Source: an uncultured Porphyromonadaceae bacterium (lineage in GTDB: Bacteria; Bacteroidota; Bacteroidia; Bacteroidales; Muribaculaceae). Taken from it: 64,000 nt of DNA. Numbering within the stretch: the stretch's first letter is position 1; every line of letters begins with the position of its first letter. The translations under genes were made by a program, and so were the position numbers. Shown in pieces: positions 490 through 51,146 of the stretch. The notes under the pieces were generated by a model, which saw nothing but the letters and a program-made list of their open reading frames with translations, did no database searches and was not told the origin of the DNA. Location of the stretch: the NCBI GenBank assembly GCA_948467675.1, contig CAOKFI010000002.1, forward strand, positions 1 to 64,000. The letters run 5' to 3'.

Positions 490-552
490 GTCGTCGGAGA
501 CGACATGCTGTGAGTAGCCCCAGGTCAGGAGCATAGCGACGCCACCTGGGGT
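490..552. repeat. Left inverted repeat of the IS200-like element
   Basis: It pairs with 1118-1180 in inverse orientation. It contains the hairpins GTCGTC/GACGAC (490-504) and CCCCAGGT/ACCTGGGG (518-525 with 544-551). Confidence 0.9.
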
Positions 553-600
553 TAGAGCGGTGGAGTGAAACAACTTCGAAGATGTTGTCTGTGATACACT

Positions 601-1044
601 TTAATTAAGCAGCCGATCATTCCATTTTATACCCTCACGGCCAAACCATTCACGCATTTCATCCTCGAATGACAGTCTGCCATGATGTTCCTGCTGGCTT
701 CTAATATACTCTATCACATGGTGCATGCGCTCCCTGTCTCTGCCGAACGCAAAATATTCTTTTCCCCATCTGTCAAAATCAGGGAATAAGCCTGACTGTT
801 TCATCCATGCGCTGCTCTCTTTTTTGATATCACGCATCATATCGCTAAGTGCGACGTTGGGATTCAGATCAAACAGGATATGCACGTGATTTGCAATTCC
901 GCCGATACGATATAGATAGCATCCGTGGCTTTTAAGTACAGACCATATAAATCGGTACAGCGCTTCCCGATTATGATTACAGATGGTCATACGTCGGCCA
1001 TACGTGTTTATGACTGCATGTATCGGATTGGAAACTTTACTCAT
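601..1044 (-). CDS. IS200/IS605-family single-tyrosine (Y1) transposase, RAYT-like
   Basis: This 147-residue protein has the two catalytic signatures of the Y1 HUH nucleases. The metal-binding NHVHILFDL puts histidines at residues 53 and 55, and the nucleophile motif YIRSQ has Tyr113 and Gln117. Members cut and join single-stranded DNA at hairpin ends, either moving themselves (IS200) or acting on dispersed palindromes (RAYT, REP-associated tyrosine transposases). The length fits an intact enzyme and the frame is open, so it may be active. It stands alone between hairpin-bearing inverted repeats, without a TnpB partner. Whether it is a true insertion sequence or a domesticated RAYT cannot be decided from one copy; related palindromes at 46-49 kb favour a REPIN-type relationship. 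Confidence 0.9.
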   Translation of the reverse strand: MSKVSNPIHAVINTYGRRMTICNHNREALYRFIWSVLKSHGCYLYRIGGIANHVHILFDLNPNVALSDMMRDIKKESSAWMKQSGLFPDFDRWGKEYFAFGRDRERMHHVIEYIRSQQEHHGRLSFEDEMREWFGREGIKWNDRLLN

Positions 1045-1117
1045 AATGACAAAGATAATAAATATGTCTGTATCACAGACAACTTCTCCGAAGTTGTTCG
1101 GGCATCGTATTGCCTAT

Positions 1118-1180
1118 ACCCCAGGTGGCGTCGCTATGCTCCTGACCTGGGGTTACTCACAGCATGTCGTCTCCGACGAC
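1118..1180. repeat. Right inverted repeat of the IS200-like element
   Basis: This is the reverse complement of 490-552 with a single difference (T in place of C just after the GGGG of the second hairpin). It contains the CCCC/GGGG hairpin and the hairpin with TCTCCGAC at its apex. Confidence 0.9.
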
Positions 1181-46034: not shown

Positions 46035-46046
46035 ATCGTGTGTTTG

Positions 46047-46110
46047 TTAATAGATTGGACACCGCAAATATAATACGCCAAAACAGCGCTGACCTGCGAT
46101 TTTTACAAAA
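46047..46110. repeat. Upstream segment of the DUF6291-like gene, copy 1
   Basis: The segment from TTAATAGATTGGACACCGC to the CCACAAAAA stretch recurs almost unchanged at 47988-48066. It includes the minus-strand TATATTTG box. In copy 1 it faces the DUF6291-like start codon. In copy 2 it abuts the stop of the LRR lipoprotein gene. Confidence 0.85.
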
Positions 46111-46134
46111 TCCACAAAAAAATTTATTTGCCCA

Positions 46135-46501
46135 TCTGCTGCGCATCTCCGAAGCGCGATGGCGGTGTCGGCCAGCCGGGTGCCCCATGTGTTCCACATG
46201 GGGTTCTTCGCCCCGCCGGATCTCCGACCCGGCCTGAGAGCAGCCTCAAGTGGGGGCGACCACAATGCATGCCGGGTTGCCAAAATCCGTAAAAATATCC
46301 TGCGCATCTCCGAAGCGCGATGGCTGTGTCAGCCTGTCGGGTACCCCATGTGTGACCACATGGGGTTCTACGTCCCGCCGGATCTCCGACCCGGCCTGAG
46401 AGACGCATCGGAGATGCGGCAAGATGCAGAACCCCACGTGGAGTGCAACGGCACGTGGGGAGACAACAAGACATACAATCTGGAGCGCATCGGAGATGCG
46501 C
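46135..46501. repeat. Palindromic repeat array A
   Basis: Two forward units (46141-46233 and 46302-46395) are followed by one inverted unit (46404-46501). A forward unit has hairpin I GCGC...GCGC with TCTCCGA at the apex, hairpin II CCCCATGTG/CACATGGGG (46183-46203 with TTC loop; 46344-46365 with TGAC loop), and hairpin III GCCGG/CCGGC around TCTCCGAC. The inverted unit has CGCATC-GGA-GATGCG, CCCCACGTG/CACGTGGGG (46432-46460, 11-nt loop) and GCGCATC-GGA-GATGCGC. Open frames through the array are Arg/Pro/Gly/Cys-rich nonsense, so it is not coding. Confidence 0.9.
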
Positions 46502-46518
46502 GGGAAAACATTTATCGG

Positions 46519-46637
46519 TCAGGAGTTGGCGAGGATGTCGAGGTAGTAGGCGATGTAGCCGTCGATACATTGCTGCCATGTGAACCGGGCTGCGTGTTCG
46601 CGCAATCTGTCGGCCATGGTGGCATCGGCATCGGCCA
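46519..46637 (-). pseudogene. Fragment of the glycosyltransferase 3' end, copy 1
   Basis: About 119 bases are nearly identical to the last 39 codons of the gene at 49219-50298, including its stop. It differs by a few bases (a codon for Tyr where the gene has Cys; CCATGTG for CCAGGTG). It is preceded by the same palindromic units that follow the intact gene. It has no start and is not a gene. Confidence 0.9.
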
Positions 46638-46782
46638 CGCCTGTCGGTGATCATTTGTTGTCAATTTGCGCAATTTTAAGATGAACTTTTGTTTTTTCTT
46701 GGATATTACAATATTTTTACATATATTGTGCTCATCAACTTTATTGATAGAGACCAATTTCTAATATCTGATTATTATCGCT
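46638..46782. other. AT-rich intergenic stretch
   Basis: This short AT-rich region separates the end of the glycosyltransferase fragment from the small exported protein gene. It probably holds that gene's promoter (for example TATTACAATATTTT near 46704), but no full consensus is seen. Confidence 0.4.
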
Positions 46783-47028
46783 ATGGGAAAGAAATTAATT
46801 ATTGCAATGCTTGCATGTATGTTGTCAGGGACTGCATTCGCACAACAGCTACAATTCTCTTTCGTTTCTAAAGAAGATGCATTGTTAACTGCCCAAAGTG
46901 AGTTTAAAGATCAGGATGTAGATTACTTCCTTTTAAATGATTACTCCCGTGGGGAGTGGTCTATATTCGTTGATGCGGAGCCTATGAAAGGGTGGGAACA
47001 TGATCAAAAGAAAATTACTATTAAATAA
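46783..47028 (+). CDS. Small exported protein of unknown function
   Basis: The 81 residues start with a clean signal peptide (MGKKLIIAMLACMLSGTAFAQ) and leave a mature chain of about 60 residues, acidic then basic (LNDYSRGEWSIFVDAEPMKGW), ending KKITIK. I do not recognise it. It is AT-rich, unlike its surroundings, and lies with the LRR lipoprotein gene in a cassette bounded by duplicated sequence. Confidence 0.6.
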   Translation: MGKKLIIAMLACMLSGTAFAQQLQFSFVSKEDALLTAQSEFKDQDVDYFLLNDYSRGEWSIFVDAEPMKGWEHDQKKITIK

Positions 47029-47112
47029 GGGTATATTGTATTCATAGGGACGTGGCATTCGGACATGTCGGATGTCGAGTCTATAAAATAAAACTTATAA
47101 AATTGTGTTGAC

Positions 47113-47988
47113 ATGAAATTCAGAATGCTATATGTAGTGCTGATGTCTGTAGCGATAGCGGGCTGTTCGCCGGATGAGCCGGAGATTAGATTGGACGATA
47201 TGGTTGTCAATATGACTGCTGCCGGACAATTGGGTGAAGCTCTTGGAGCACAAGCCAATGAGATAACGAAACTTACAGTACGCGGCCCGATCAATGCCGA
47301 AGACTTCAACGCGATGTGGAGCGCATCGTTCAATGGTCAGCTGTCAGTAATAGACCTCAGCGGTGCTGTCATAGATGGTAATGAGGTGCCGGCTTGTGCG
47401 TTCTATCATCCGGATGTGCAGGGAGATCTCGATACCAATCCCAATAAATCTTCAAAATATTTAGCAAGCATTAAATTAGAACAAATTATATTGCCTGAGG
47501 GAATATACCAGATAGGGGCTTATGCATTTACCAATGTATGGAGGTTAAAAGAAGTGACCATTCCTTCGACTGTTGAAAGTATCGGAGCGTATGCTTTTGC
47601 TGATTGCGGCCTAATCACAGTATCCTTATCTGGTCGTATTAAAGAGATTGAGGCATATAGTTTTTTCCGGTGCACGAATTTGTGGGAATTGTATCTTCCA
47701 TTGATGCTCGAATCGCTCGATAAAGAAAGTTTGAATGTTAGGTTTATGTTACAAAAAATTTATTCAGCAGCTAAGAACCCTCCGGTGTGCCGGGGAGCGG
47801 CTGACGGTGACACTCCTTTCGGACGTTATGATGGCCAACTTTCCAACAGCAGCATATCCACGTACGTACCGGTATATGTACCGGCTGGATCGGCCGAGTT
47901 GTATCGCAACGCTCCGGGATGGGATTACTTCAAGAACTTTATTGAACTCGACCCGTTTCCGACGGAGGCTGTCGCCAAGATGCGTTAG
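47113..47988 (+). CDS. BspA-like leucine-rich-repeat lipoprotein
   Basis: MKFRMLYVVLMSVAIAGC is a lipoprotein signal (Cys18); the protein has 291 residues. The middle (about 80-215) has three to four LRR_5/BspA-type repeats (ILPEGIYQIGAYAF, VTIPSTVESIGAYAFADCG, KEIEAYSFFRCTNL). The end contains STYVPVYVPAGSAELYRNAPGWDYF, a typical closing motif of these surface proteins. BspA-type proteins bind host or bacterial surface ligands. Its stop abuts the second copy of the DUF6291-upstream segment. Confidence 0.85.
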   Translation: MKFRMLYVVLMSVAIAGCSPDEPEIRLDDMVVNMTAAGQLGEALGAQANEITKLTVRGPINAEDFNAMWSASFNGQLSVIDLSGAVIDGNEVPACAFYHPDVQGDLDTNPNKSSKYLASIKLEQIILPEGIYQIGAYAFTNVWRLKEVTIPSTVESIGAYAFADCGLITVSLSGRIKEIEAYSFFRCTNLWELYLPLMLESLDKESLNVRFMLQKIYSAAKNPPVCRGAADGDTPFGRYDGQLSNSSISTYVPVYVPAGSAELYRNAPGWDYFKNFIELDPFPTEAVAKMR

Positions 47989-48066
47989 CTAATAGATTAG
48001 ATACCGCAAATATAATACGCCAAAACAGCGCTGACCTGCGATTTTTACAAAATCCACAAAAATTAT
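47988..48066. repeat. Upstream segment of the DUF6291-like gene, copy 2
   Basis: It repeats 46047-46110 with few changes (TTAGATACCGC for TTGGACACCGC), including the TATATTTG box (minus strand, 48006-48013). On its minus-strand side it points into the 3' end of the LRR gene, so here it is a promoter without its gene. Confidence 0.85.
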
Positions 48067-48074
48067 TAGCACAT

Positions 48075-49201
48075 ATCCTGCGCATCTCCGAAGCGCGATG
48101 GCAGTGTCAGCCTGTCGGGTGCCCCATGTGTTCCACATGGGGTTCTGCTCCCCGCCGGATCTCCGACCCGGCCTGAGAGCAGTGTCGGCCTGTCTGGTGC
48201 CCCATGTGTTCCACATGGGGTTTTATGTCCCGCCGGATCTCCGACCCGGCCTGAGAGCCGCGTCACGTGGGGGCAACCACAAGACATGCCGGTTTCACAG
48301 CAACTGCAGAAATATCCTGCGCATCTCCGAAGCGCGATGGCAGTGTCGGCCTGTCGGGTGCCCCATGTGTGACCACATGGGGTTCTGCGTCCCGCCGGAT
48401 CTCCGACCCGGCCTTATACCTTTGTCTGACGAGACGCATCGGAGATGCGGCAAGATGCAGAACCCCACGTGGAGTGCAACGGCACGTGGGGAGACAACAA
48501 GACATACAATCTGGAGCGCATCGGAGATGCGCGGGAAAACATTTATCGGTCAGGAGTTGGCGAGGATGTCGAGGTAGTAGGCGATGTAGCCGTCGATACA
48601 TTGCTGCCAGGTGAACCGGGCTGCGTGTTCGCGCAATCTGTCGGGTGCCCCATGTGTTCCACATGGGGTTCTACGTCCCGCCGGATCTCCGATCCGGCCT
48701 GAGAGCCGCGTCACGTGGGGGCGACCACAATGCATGCCGGGTTGCCAACATCCGCAGAAAATATCCTGCGCATCTCCGAAGCGCGATGGCTGTGTCGGCC
48801 TGTCGGGTGCCCCATGTGTTCCACATGGGGTTCTACGCCCCGCCGGATCTCCGACCCGGCCTGAGAGCGGTGTCGGCCTGTCGGGTGCCCCATGTGTTCC
48901 ACATGGGGTTCTACGTCCCGCCGGATCTCCGACCCGGCCTGAGAGCAGCGTCGGACTGTCGGGTACCCCATGTGTGACCACATGGGGTTCTGCGCCCCGC
49001 CGGATCTCCGACCCGGCCTGAGAGCGGTGTCAGCCAGTCGGGTGCCCCATGTGTTCCACATGGGGTTATGCGTCCCGCCGGATCTCCGACCCGGCCTGAG
49101 AGACGCATCGGAGATGCGGCAAGATGCAGAACCCCACGTGGAGTGCAACGGCACGTGGGGAGACAACAAGACATACAATCTGGAGCGCATCGGAGATGCG
49201 C
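48075..49201. repeat. Palindromic repeat array B
   Basis: Eight CCCCATGTG/CACATGGGG hairpins start at 48122, 48200, 48361, 48648, 48810, 48888, 48966 and 49044. The loops are TTC, except TGAC at 48361 and 48966. Each is followed by a GCCGG/CCGGC hairpin. Hairpin I copies stand at 48080, 48319 and 48768. Inverted units with CCCCACGTG/CACGTGGGG lie at 48435-48532 and 49104-49201. A fragment of the glycosyltransferase 3' end (48550-48644) sits inside. The array ends 18 bases before the stop codon of the intact glycosyltransferase gene. The period of the tandem part (48810-49044) is 78 bases. Confidence 0.9.
48550..48644 (-). pseudogene. Fragment of the glycosyltransferase 3' end, copy 2
   Basis: About 95 bases match the end of the gene at 49219-50298 and then switch, within CTGTCGG, into a palindromic unit. 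The switch uses a stretch shared by both sequences (GTCGG), as in recombination at short homology. It agrees with copy 1 against the intact gene at the Tyr/Cys codon. Confidence 0.9.
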
Positions 49202-49218
49202 GGGAAAACATTTATCGG

Positions 49219-50298
49219 TCAGGAGTTGGCGAGGATGTCGAGGTAGCAGGCTATGTAGCCGTCGATACATTGCTGCCAGGTGAACCGGGCTGCGTGTTCG
49301 CGCAGTCTGTCGGCCATGGTGGCATCGGCATCGGCCATGTGGGTGCGTACGGCATCGGCCATGACTTCCGGTGACAGATCAGGCCAGTAGAATGCCACGT
49401 CGCCGCCGACTTCGGGAAGGCTTGTGAGTGTGGATAGAAACACCGGTTTGCCGAATTTCATGGCTTCGATAGGCGGTAGTCCGAATCCTTCGCACAGCGA
49501 GGGGAACATGAACGCGCGGCACCGCGAATAAAGTACGGCCTTCTGTTCCTCCGATATGCGGTCGAGCGTAGTTATGTTACGGTTGGGGGCGTTGGCAATG
49601 GCTTCCTGCAGCGAGCGGCCGTATTCGTCGTTCTGCCACGTTCCTGCGATTACCAGATGTTCGTCCGGCAGATATTTCATCATCTCCACAAGCAGATGCA
49701 CGTTCTTCTTGGGATAAAGGCTCGATACGTGGAAGAAGAAACGCTCCGGCAATGGCGGCAGGATGTCTGACGCGGCGTTTTCGGCCAATGCTGTCAGATC
49801 GGTGACGCCGTTATAGATTATGCGTTGCGGGGTGTCGAGCCTGAAGTGAGCGGCAGTATCGGACTGCGCGAACTCCGATATGAACGACAGGTGGTCGGCA
49901 TGGTCAAGGCGCCATTGCAGCCGGCGGATGCCGCGCTTCAGACGGGAACCGTGCTTCTCGTACATGAAATTGATATCATGTATTGTGAGCAGGGTGTGTT
50001 TTGCTCCTGCCACCTGTTTGAGCGCGCAGTACTGATGAGGTGCATGGAACAGATCCACATCTCCGCATCCGAAATGTTTCAGAACAGGTCTGGAAAGGCC
50101 TGTCATGGTCACATATTCCACATCGGGGCCGAAGCATCCGCGATAGGCCGGCGGAACGATGAATGCGAGTTCTATGCTGTGGTCGCGGCGCAGTTCCGCG
50201 GCTCTGGCGGCCAGTCCGTTGCCGAGCTGGATCATCACTTCTTTCAGACCGCAGTACGGGGCGCTGATTATATTTGCTTCAATAAGTATCCGTGGCAT
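49219..50298 (-). CDS. GT4-like glycosyltransferase
   Basis: The ATG at 50298 gives MPRILIEANIISAPYCGL; the protein has 359 residues. The C-terminal half has the GT4/GT-B pattern: FFHVSSLYPKKNVHLLVEMM, LVIAGTWQNDEYG and FMFPSLCEGFGLPPIEAMKFGKPV, with the acidic pair of the EGFGLPPIE motif. It transfers a sugar from a nucleotide donor, probably to the lipopolysaccharide core or O-glycan, as it ends a nine-gene envelope cluster. Its last about 39 codons exist in two extra copies downstream. Confidence 0.92.
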   Translation of the reverse strand: MPRILIEANIISAPYCGLKEVMIQLGNGLAARAAELRRDHSIELAFIVPPAYRGCFGPDVEYVTMTGLSRPVLKHFGCGDVDLFHAPHQYCALKQVAGAKHTLLTIHDINFMYEKHGSRLKRGIRRLQWRLDHADHLSFISEFAQSDTAAHFRLDTPQRIIYNGVTDLTALAENAASDILPPLPERFFFHVSSLYPKKNVHLLVEMMKYLPDEHLVIAGTWQNDEYGRSLQEAIANAPNRNITTLDRISEEQKAVLYSRCRAFMFPSLCEGFGLPPIEAMKFGKPVFLSTLTSLPEVGGDVAFYWPDLSPEVMADAVRTHMADADATMADRLREHAARFTWQQCIDGYIACYLDILANS

Positions 50299-50306
50299 AA
50301 TGTAAT

Positions 50307-51146
50307 TTAGTTCAGGTAACTGGGAAATGTGACTGCTGCAAACACGAGCCCATACCGGCGTTCCAGTGTGCGGTTGTCGGCTATATGGCTGTAGTCGAGA
50401 TGATGGTTCCGCCATGGACGTACAATACGGGACTGTTTCGGAAGCCAGTTGCCGTATAGCTCGAACTCGGAGAAGCCGGATATATGGCTGCGGTCGATAC
50501 TGTCGAGTATGGCCTCATCCCATTTCCTCCCGGGATTGGCTTTCTCGATATCGGCTTGAAGACGCTTCAGGCTGTTGCGGTCGAATACCATCTTGTGTGC
50601 TACATAACTCAGCGGTGAGGTCACTTCCAGGCCGATGAGGCGCCTGATATTGTCGTAATACGGTGTATGTCGCTCGCTGCTGCGGTACAAGACGGATTTT
50701 CCGTCGGCACATACGAATGTGTGGGGACGCAGCAGTATATGATCTGAGTCGATGGTCACTATCCAGCGGCTGTCGCCTATTCGTCCGGACAGTTTCAGCA
50801 ACTGCTGGTATAGCCAGCCGGAACGGTCTACCGGCGGTTGCGACACGATAAGGCCGAGATGACCGGGTCCGTATCCCATTATCTGTAGCTCGTCGATGAA
50901 TACGGTGCCATATCTCGTACAGACCTCGCGCACTGCGGCGGTGTCGCGTGCCACTATGTATATTGCGGCTATCCGGTTGGTGACGTTACGCCGCAGGCCC
51001 TCCAGAGTCAGCGGCAATATGGTCAGATCCTTGTCGGTGACAGGGATCACCACGTCGACCGGATCGCAGGACGGAACCGGAGTGCGGTACGGCAGTATGG
51101 CCGAAGCGTGATAGCGGATCTTGCGCAGTAGTCTATGGCGGTTCAT
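50307..51146 (-). CDS. DUF6492-like putative glycosyltransferase
   Basis: The ATG at 51146 gives MNRHRLLRKIRYHASAILPYR; the protein has 279 residues. A GT-A-like core shows DVVIPVTDKDLTILPLTLEGLRR and a DxD-like WIVTIDSDHILLRPHTFV. ISGFSEFELYGNW near the end is typical of the DUF6492 group. It is probably a sugar transferase acting on the same glycan as its neighbours. It lies eight bases from the GT4-like gene. Confidence 0.8.
   Translation of the reverse strand: MNRHRLLRKIRYHASAILPYRTPVPSCDPVDVVIPVTDKDLTILPLTLEGLRRNVTNRIAAIYIVARDTAAVREVCTRYGTVFIDELQIMGYGPGHLGLIVSQPPVDRSGWLYQQLLKLSGRIGDSRWIVTIDSDHILLRPHTFVCADGKSVLYRSSERHTPYYDNIRRLIGLEVTSPLSYVAHKMVFDRNSLKRLQADIEKANPGRKWDEAILDSIDRSHISGFSEFELYGNWLPKQSRIVRPWRNHHLDYSHIADNRTLERRYGLVFAAVTFPSYLN

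Follow-up and report, generated by a model that had tools for sequence, protein, structure and literature searches.

Introduction

REP/RAYT systems are a main known case of a tamed transposase that lives with its own repeats. In Escherichia coli, Pseudomonas and Stenotrophomonas, the REP, BIME and REPIN palindromes that go with class-2 TnpA-REP (RAYT) proteins are described as dispersed between genes, singly and in inverted pairs, and as also lying on either side of a low-copy HUH/Y1 transposase gene; every such gene is paired with its own repeat family, and the enzymes read features of the loop or the stem in the cases tested (accounts in PMC6006769 and PMC8266576). In the classification of Quentin et al. 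2018 (PMC6006769), class 2 carries the motif Y---NP, and subclass 1.2, with the motif Y---Q--HH, is separated both from it and from IS200 (subclass 1.1). Subclass 1.2 is listed there with a median length of 148 aa, a low copy number and an occurrence in Bacteroidetes, and the table of that paper gives it zero REPs. It stood apart for lacking both insertion-sequence features and REPs, which left its role open.

Here we analyse a 64,000-nt stretch of DNA (the window) from an uncultured Muribaculaceae bacterium, in which palindromic arrays at 46 and 48-49 kb resemble the flanks of a distant Y1 transposase gene. An earlier note, made from the sequence of the window, had suggested that they look like REPINs of a RAYT/IS200 system.

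A three-hairpin plan

The arrays and both flanks of the window's transposase gene have a common plan (Table 1), in which hairpin I, with a 3-nt loop, is followed after 20-26 nt by hairpin II, then by a linker that mostly begins with TT, and finally by hairpin III, again with a 3-nt loop. We confirmed the coordinates of the three hairpins that the earlier note had described in the right flank, a forward unit and an inverted unit, and as single-stranded DNA all of them folded better than dinucleotide shuffles (z -5.3, -2.4 and -6.0, respectively). The left flank, which had not been used in that description, harbors the same three-hairpin set in inverted orientation (z -2.7). Its arm at 490-552 is 98% complementary to 1118-1180, and the inverted repeat of the right end reaches inward to about 1069. 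The end of the last inverted unit is corrected here to 49202.

The apex of hairpins I and III had been given as TCTCCGA, TCC or an equivalent. What is shared in the source genome is a 3-nt loop on a C-G closing pair, TC[TCC]GA, and in hairpins I and III of the forward units the TCTCCGA core is adjoined by a single mismatch (A.A and A.C); beyond the source genome the loop is TNC. Read on the opposite strand, the hairpins have GNA loops, closed by C-G in most of them, and a GNA loop closed by C-G is exceptionally stable in DNA.

Table 1. Transposase gene, element ends and array units in the window
Feature	Position	Strand	Basis or remark
Y1 (HUH) transposase gene, 147 aa, subclass-1.2 motif	601..1044	-	PF01797 E 1.6e-17; NHVH and YIRSQQEHH
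Transposase element left end, III 490-504, II 518-551, I 570-588	490..588	-	hairpins, folding; outward on minus strand
Transposase element right end, I 1079-1097, II 1118-1153, III 1166-1180	1079..1180	+	hairpins, folding
Forward unit, I 46141-46157, II 46183-46203, III 46215-46233	46141..46233	+	
Forward unit I-II-III	46302..46395	+	
Inverted unit, I 46501-46485, II 46460-46432, III 46417-46405 (minus strand)	46402..46502	-	77% identical to C21 transposase left flank over most of its length
Forward unit I-II-III, then tandem II-III repeat up to 48250	48080..48172	+	
Forward unit I-II-III	48319..48412	+	
Inverted unit	48433..48533	-	identical to 46402-46502
Partial forward unit (II-III)	48642..48705	+	
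Forward unit and three tandem II-III repeats	48768..49095	+	78-79 nt period
Inverted unit	49102..49202	-	identical to 46402-46502

Two kinds of longer copy lie around the arrays. An 82-nt upstream stretch is present twice (46039-46120 and 47981-48062), and a block of 282 nt, made up of array and the 3' end of a glycosyltransferase gene (49219-50415), is present three times (46356-46637, 48387-48668 and 49056-49337). The duplicated blocks bracket a BspA-type LRR gene (47113-47988), which amounts to a segmental duplication around the arrays.

The transposases of the source genome

The assembly spans 2.58 Mb in 60 contigs, is 99.9% complete and contains two Y1_Tnp genes, the one in the window (contig C2) and one at C21:7907-8347. 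Both are intact with their catalytic motifs, NH[VI]H and Y..[SN]Q.EHHG, and the combination of HUH with Y---Q--HH was found in both proteins as well as in every relative that reaches the motif. By motif, length, copy number and taxonomy, the two proteins would belong to subclass 1.2. The class-2 motif Y---NP is absent from both, and by motif they are not class-2 RAYTs. Instead of the several near-identical whole-element copies that characterize IS200/IS605, the genome holds these two genes, whose products, of 147 aa each, are 47% identical. An AlphaFold2 model was confident (pLDDT 91), with ISDra2 and IS608 TnpA as its best fold matches in the PDB, followed by E. coli TnpA-REP (4ER8), and NCBIfam scored the window protein as IS200-like at a value below the cut-off (41.9 against 55).

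Pattern searches and fetched stretches of the source genome were used for a census of the hairpins. The hairpin I pattern was found at 52 places, against none for its reversed control, and the fetched stretches yielded 98 hairpins, grouped into 29 clusters that include a few weak single matches; clear members of the family amount to about 90 hairpins in about 20 clusters. These counts are probably underestimates, since several arrays lie at contig ends. Arrays no more than about 200 bp from an end were seen at C7:200, C17:47628, C21:90, C24:43217, C50:78 and C50:6068, and the arrays probably cause the assembly breaks.

Conservation of structure within the family and beyond

The earlier note had proposed that the stems differ in sequence and stay complementary, and had suggested a covariance model and a search of this and related genomes as a check. 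We built the model from 23 units of the source genome, and covariation was indeed found among the copies. In these units 91.7% of the pair cells hold standard pairs, compared with 82.6% after shuffling, ten pairs have changed on both sides, and pairing falls to 24-51% when the partner is slid along the sequence. With at most ten candidates scored per genome, the model had matches in 117 of the 397 same-family genomes. Among 150 matches from relatives, in an alignment fitted to the model and therefore leaning towards it, 92.8% of cells are paired (72.9% when shuffled, no more than 50% when slid) and double-change cells number 570, against 181 when shuffled.

The plan extends well beyond this family. 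It was recognized on one or both sides of the gene in most of 50 further homologue loci, mostly from Bacteroidales MAGs, and across Bacteroidota it stays the same while the stem sequences are unrelated. The flanks of the homologues contain 217 triloop hairpins where shuffles give 24, and 138 outward hairpins with a TNC loop where shuffles give 1.9; a strict parser that demands the full outward plan accepted 59 of 184 flanks and rejected all 920 shuffled flanks. The linker after hairpin II has a T at its first position in 25 of 31 cases and at its second in 26 of 31. A Cytophagales plasmid (Persicobacter, L302) and a Lentisphaerae MAG (L092) carry the plan. The latter and a locus in a record titled Pseudoflavonifractor (L076), both with subclass-1.2 homologues and similar flanking hairpins, bear labels outside Bacteroidota, either through horizontal transfer or because the MAGs are mislabelled. 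At locus L050 hairpin II of the right flank is interrupted by an unrelated palindromic insert of about 90 nt that is absent from L049 in the same MAG, and the two form a clean filled and empty pair for a different repeat family. Zero relatives were found in the viral contigs searched, and phage records returned only distant Y1 proteins with less than 30% identity.

Coupling of the repeats to the gene

Flanks and proteins diverge together. The Mantel Spearman coefficient between protein distance and flank similarity was -0.47 for the 85 genes that have both flanks, and none of 500 permutations went below -0.17; where the proteins differ by more than half, the flank sequences are unrelated and the plan persists. 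Dispersed units follow the gene of their own genome as well: for 29 of 45 units from 12 genomes the flank of the resident transposase was the best match, compared with a mean of 3.7 and a maximum of 21 in 2000 permutations.

At the level of whole genomes, 83 of the 201 that have the gene contain units, compared with 34 of the 196 that do not (odds ratio 3.35, p 1.8e-7); among high-quality genomes the counts are 40 of 109 and 18 of 113, respectively (p 4.5e-4), phylogeny being ignored in both tests. Against the link stand 118 genomes that have the gene and no match, although the model was built from one genome and stems diverge. The earlier note had asked whether copy number follows this type of transposase; repeats are enriched where the gene is present, with exceptions in the 34 of 117 repeat-bearing genomes where no subclass-1.2 gene was detected. 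Abundant arrays in genomes lacking any related Y1 transposase, which that note had named as grounds for giving up its reading, do therefore occur in part, and some of the genomes are nearly complete. A search of these 34 genomes with the whole Y1_Tnp family returned only weak matches or longer, different proteins. At least nine model matches in the absence of the gene were seen in genomes G003, G099 (loci L186-L195 for these two) and G183; G003 and G099 are each 99% complete, with 9 and at least 10 matches. These 34 genomes are the main counter-evidence to a link with the gene. Gaps in the MAGs could possibly account for missing genes, and REPs are known to outlive their gene (PMC3733652).

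Element ends and gene-less copies

A gene-bearing element usually has the order III'-II'-I'-[gene]-I-II-III, with ends of about 95-110 nt that each comprise three hairpins and are inverted relatives of one another. Of the pairs of model matches around the gene, 10 are divergent, 2 tandem and 1 convergent, which means that outward-pointing ends are the usual case; units pointing inward stand beside some genes (G281, G079). The sequence before hairpin I tells the two ends apart, CTTCCT or TCCT being of the right-end type and GTGTC of the left-end type.

Gene-less divergent doublets, with a spacer of about 20 nt, look like joined ends. In genomes G072 and G195, the doublet spacer TCTATGGTCGCCACCATAGGCTC resembles a junction of the gene-bearing element's inner left end, GGTCTGTGGTTGC, with its inner right end, ATACCATAGGCTC, and a second family there (GATGTGATGGTAA..TTACCATCACATC) corresponds in like manner to the ends of a second transposase gene. 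On C21 of the source genome, a gene-less copy adjoins the gene-bearing one and the inner ends match (GACACACGA.. and CTTCCT). Copies that lack the gene and keep the ends of the gene-bearing element, a MITE trait, are thus present in G072/G195 and on C21, while the match between doublet spacer and gene ends was unclear in G281, G079 and G175. The arrays of the source genome are convergent, I-II-III being followed by III'-II'-I', and would in this respect look as the joint of two element ends should. As in REPINs and BIMEs, inverted pairs are dispersed between genes and also flank the transposase, and units were intergenic wherever their neighbours were checked. An empty-site search for one G072/G195 unit yielded no clean empty site, since the site is occupied in both genomes and other relatives have unrelated intergenic DNA at that place.

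The second repeat family, TACCATCACATCGCCCTGCGGGCTC (L207, L222 and L225; G072 and G195), matches a second subclass-1.2 gene in G072, and among 17 genomes of that genus its pattern was found only in G072 and G195.

Origin of the arrays

We consider it likely that the arrays are non-autonomous, REP/MITE-like palindromic elements that are processed as single-stranded DNA by a subclass-1.2 Y1 (HUH) transposase. Such an enzyme would most likely bind the end hairpins when they are single-stranded, for example in the lagging-strand template, recognizing the stems together with the 3-nt loops, which read TNC on one strand and GNA on the opposite one. Its nick might fall close to the unpaired, conserved TT tract that separates hairpin II from hairpin III, or else at the outer ends, and it would then move or rejoin the end pieces, those without a gene being moved in trans. 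Gene-less doublets and arrays would represent joined ends, or copies left after gene loss, and the arrays could later have been amplified by recombination. For this last step the window retains possible traces, since the 78-79 nt tandem II-III repeats and the copied blocks, which extend into the neighbouring glycosyltransferase gene at its 3' end, point to growth of the arrays by recombination.

The earlier note had paired the arrays with the gene at 601-1044, with which they share the plan and a contig. That this gene serves them is very improbable, as the arrays match the flanks of the C21 gene far better. Units with the GCGCATCTCCGATGCGC and CGCATCTCCGATGCG hairpins of the window arrays lie on either side of the C21 gene, whose flanks (best scores 53-111) outscored the C2 flanks (best scores 16-37) for 12 of 12 dispersed units tested, while a search of the genome with the C2 flank found itself, its inverted partner, two remnants and nothing else. 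The arrays therefore belong with the C21 transposase, which is their closest partner, and the transposase of the window is a paralogue that has left few remnants. Degraded copies of its flank (hairpins II-III) lie at C45:9505-9562 and C17:23180-23214. The REPIN reading was right in kind, but it named the wrong transposase, the enzymes are not of the RAYT class by their motif, and the GTAG/GTGG foot is absent (GT[AG]G at 2 of 263 TNC hairpins, with 7 on the complementary strand). That the hairpins are ordinary intergenic RNA structures, such as terminators or attenuators, which resemble one another by chance, is also very improbable. Good folding and the intergenic location where checked would suit them, yet the plan is found beside transposase genes and again in inverted pairs, the loop is limited to TNC, and an Rfam scan of the window gave zero matches. 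Of some 2,660 paired cells in the alignment of relatives, about 21 hold G.U pairs, a rarity that is unusual for RNA and would fit selection on DNA hairpins.

A more serious alternative, though an unlikely one, is that a subclass-1.2 transposase spread the units in the past but no longer moves them, and that recombination and slippage alone now keep and amplify them, the units perhaps serving the host at mRNA ends or in DNA binding. Relics of this kind would agree with the tandem repeats and copied blocks of the window, the fixed mismatch in the forward-unit stems and the repeats in 34 genomes without the gene. They would not lead one to expect that both genes of the source genome are intact with their catalytic motifs, that dispersed units resemble the flanks of the resident transposase, or that the stems change and remain complementary. 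Processing by a resident subclass-1.2 enzyme is the reading we prefer, and it would explain a class of palindromic arrays that is also found at assembly breaks in the source genome.

Comparison with known systems

The literature searched contained no report of REP-like repeats for subclass 1.2, for Bacteroidetes or for Muribaculaceae. The structured, co-diverging ends and the dispersed gene-less copies provide subclass-1.2 proteins with a likely and directly testable substrate, and suggest that proteins outside class 2 can also follow a REP-type way of life. A bolder proposal, which we put forward tentatively and regard as nearly as apt to be right as wrong, is that subclass 1.2 forms a separate, Bacteroidota-wide REP-like lineage on the IS200 side of the tree, in which a three-hairpin end would be read through its TNC/GNA loops, not through a GTAG foot, and gene-less doublets and arrays would arise by processing of single-stranded ends. 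If so, the REP-type way of life would have arisen more than once among Y1 transposases.

TIRYT/TIRtron elements (Di Nocera 2013, PMC3733652) likewise combine tyrosine transposase genes with long inverted repeats, some of them self-complementary and some repeated genome-wide, but these repeats share the motif GGGGWSAS and not the TNC triloop plan, and the proteins are given in PMC6006769 as mostly of subclass 2.1 with HTH tails. The "atypical secondary structures" reported there for subclass 2.6, which is mostly from Bacteroidetes as here, and for class 3 are also non-canonical palindromes around the gene with copies elsewhere; the proteins differ (Y---NP in subclass 2.6; repeats with a CnGA foot in class 3), and the three-hairpin plan does not figure in the description that PMC6006769 gives of them. 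With IS200/IS605 (IS608, ISDra2; subclass 1.1) our system has in common the fold, the expected HUH/Y chemistry and hairpins at the ends of a gene-bearing element, whereas here each end has three hairpins and is an inverted relative of the other, and there are only two diverged genes and no recent multi-copy element. The proteins agree with subclass 1.2 as outlined in PMC6006769 in the Y---Q--HH motif, a length of about 148 aa, low copy number and Bacteroidetes; in contrast to that outline, which has no REPs and generally no IS200-type terminal structures, we find structured ends and dispersed copies. Set against the REP/RAYT systems as portrayed in PMC6006769 and PMC8266576, the present one likewise has dispersed intergenic palindromes, single and inverted, that flank a low-copy HUH/Y1 gene with a repeat family of its own, but it differs in having Y---Q--HH in place of Y---NP, no GT[AG]G foot, and three hairpins per unit instead of one.
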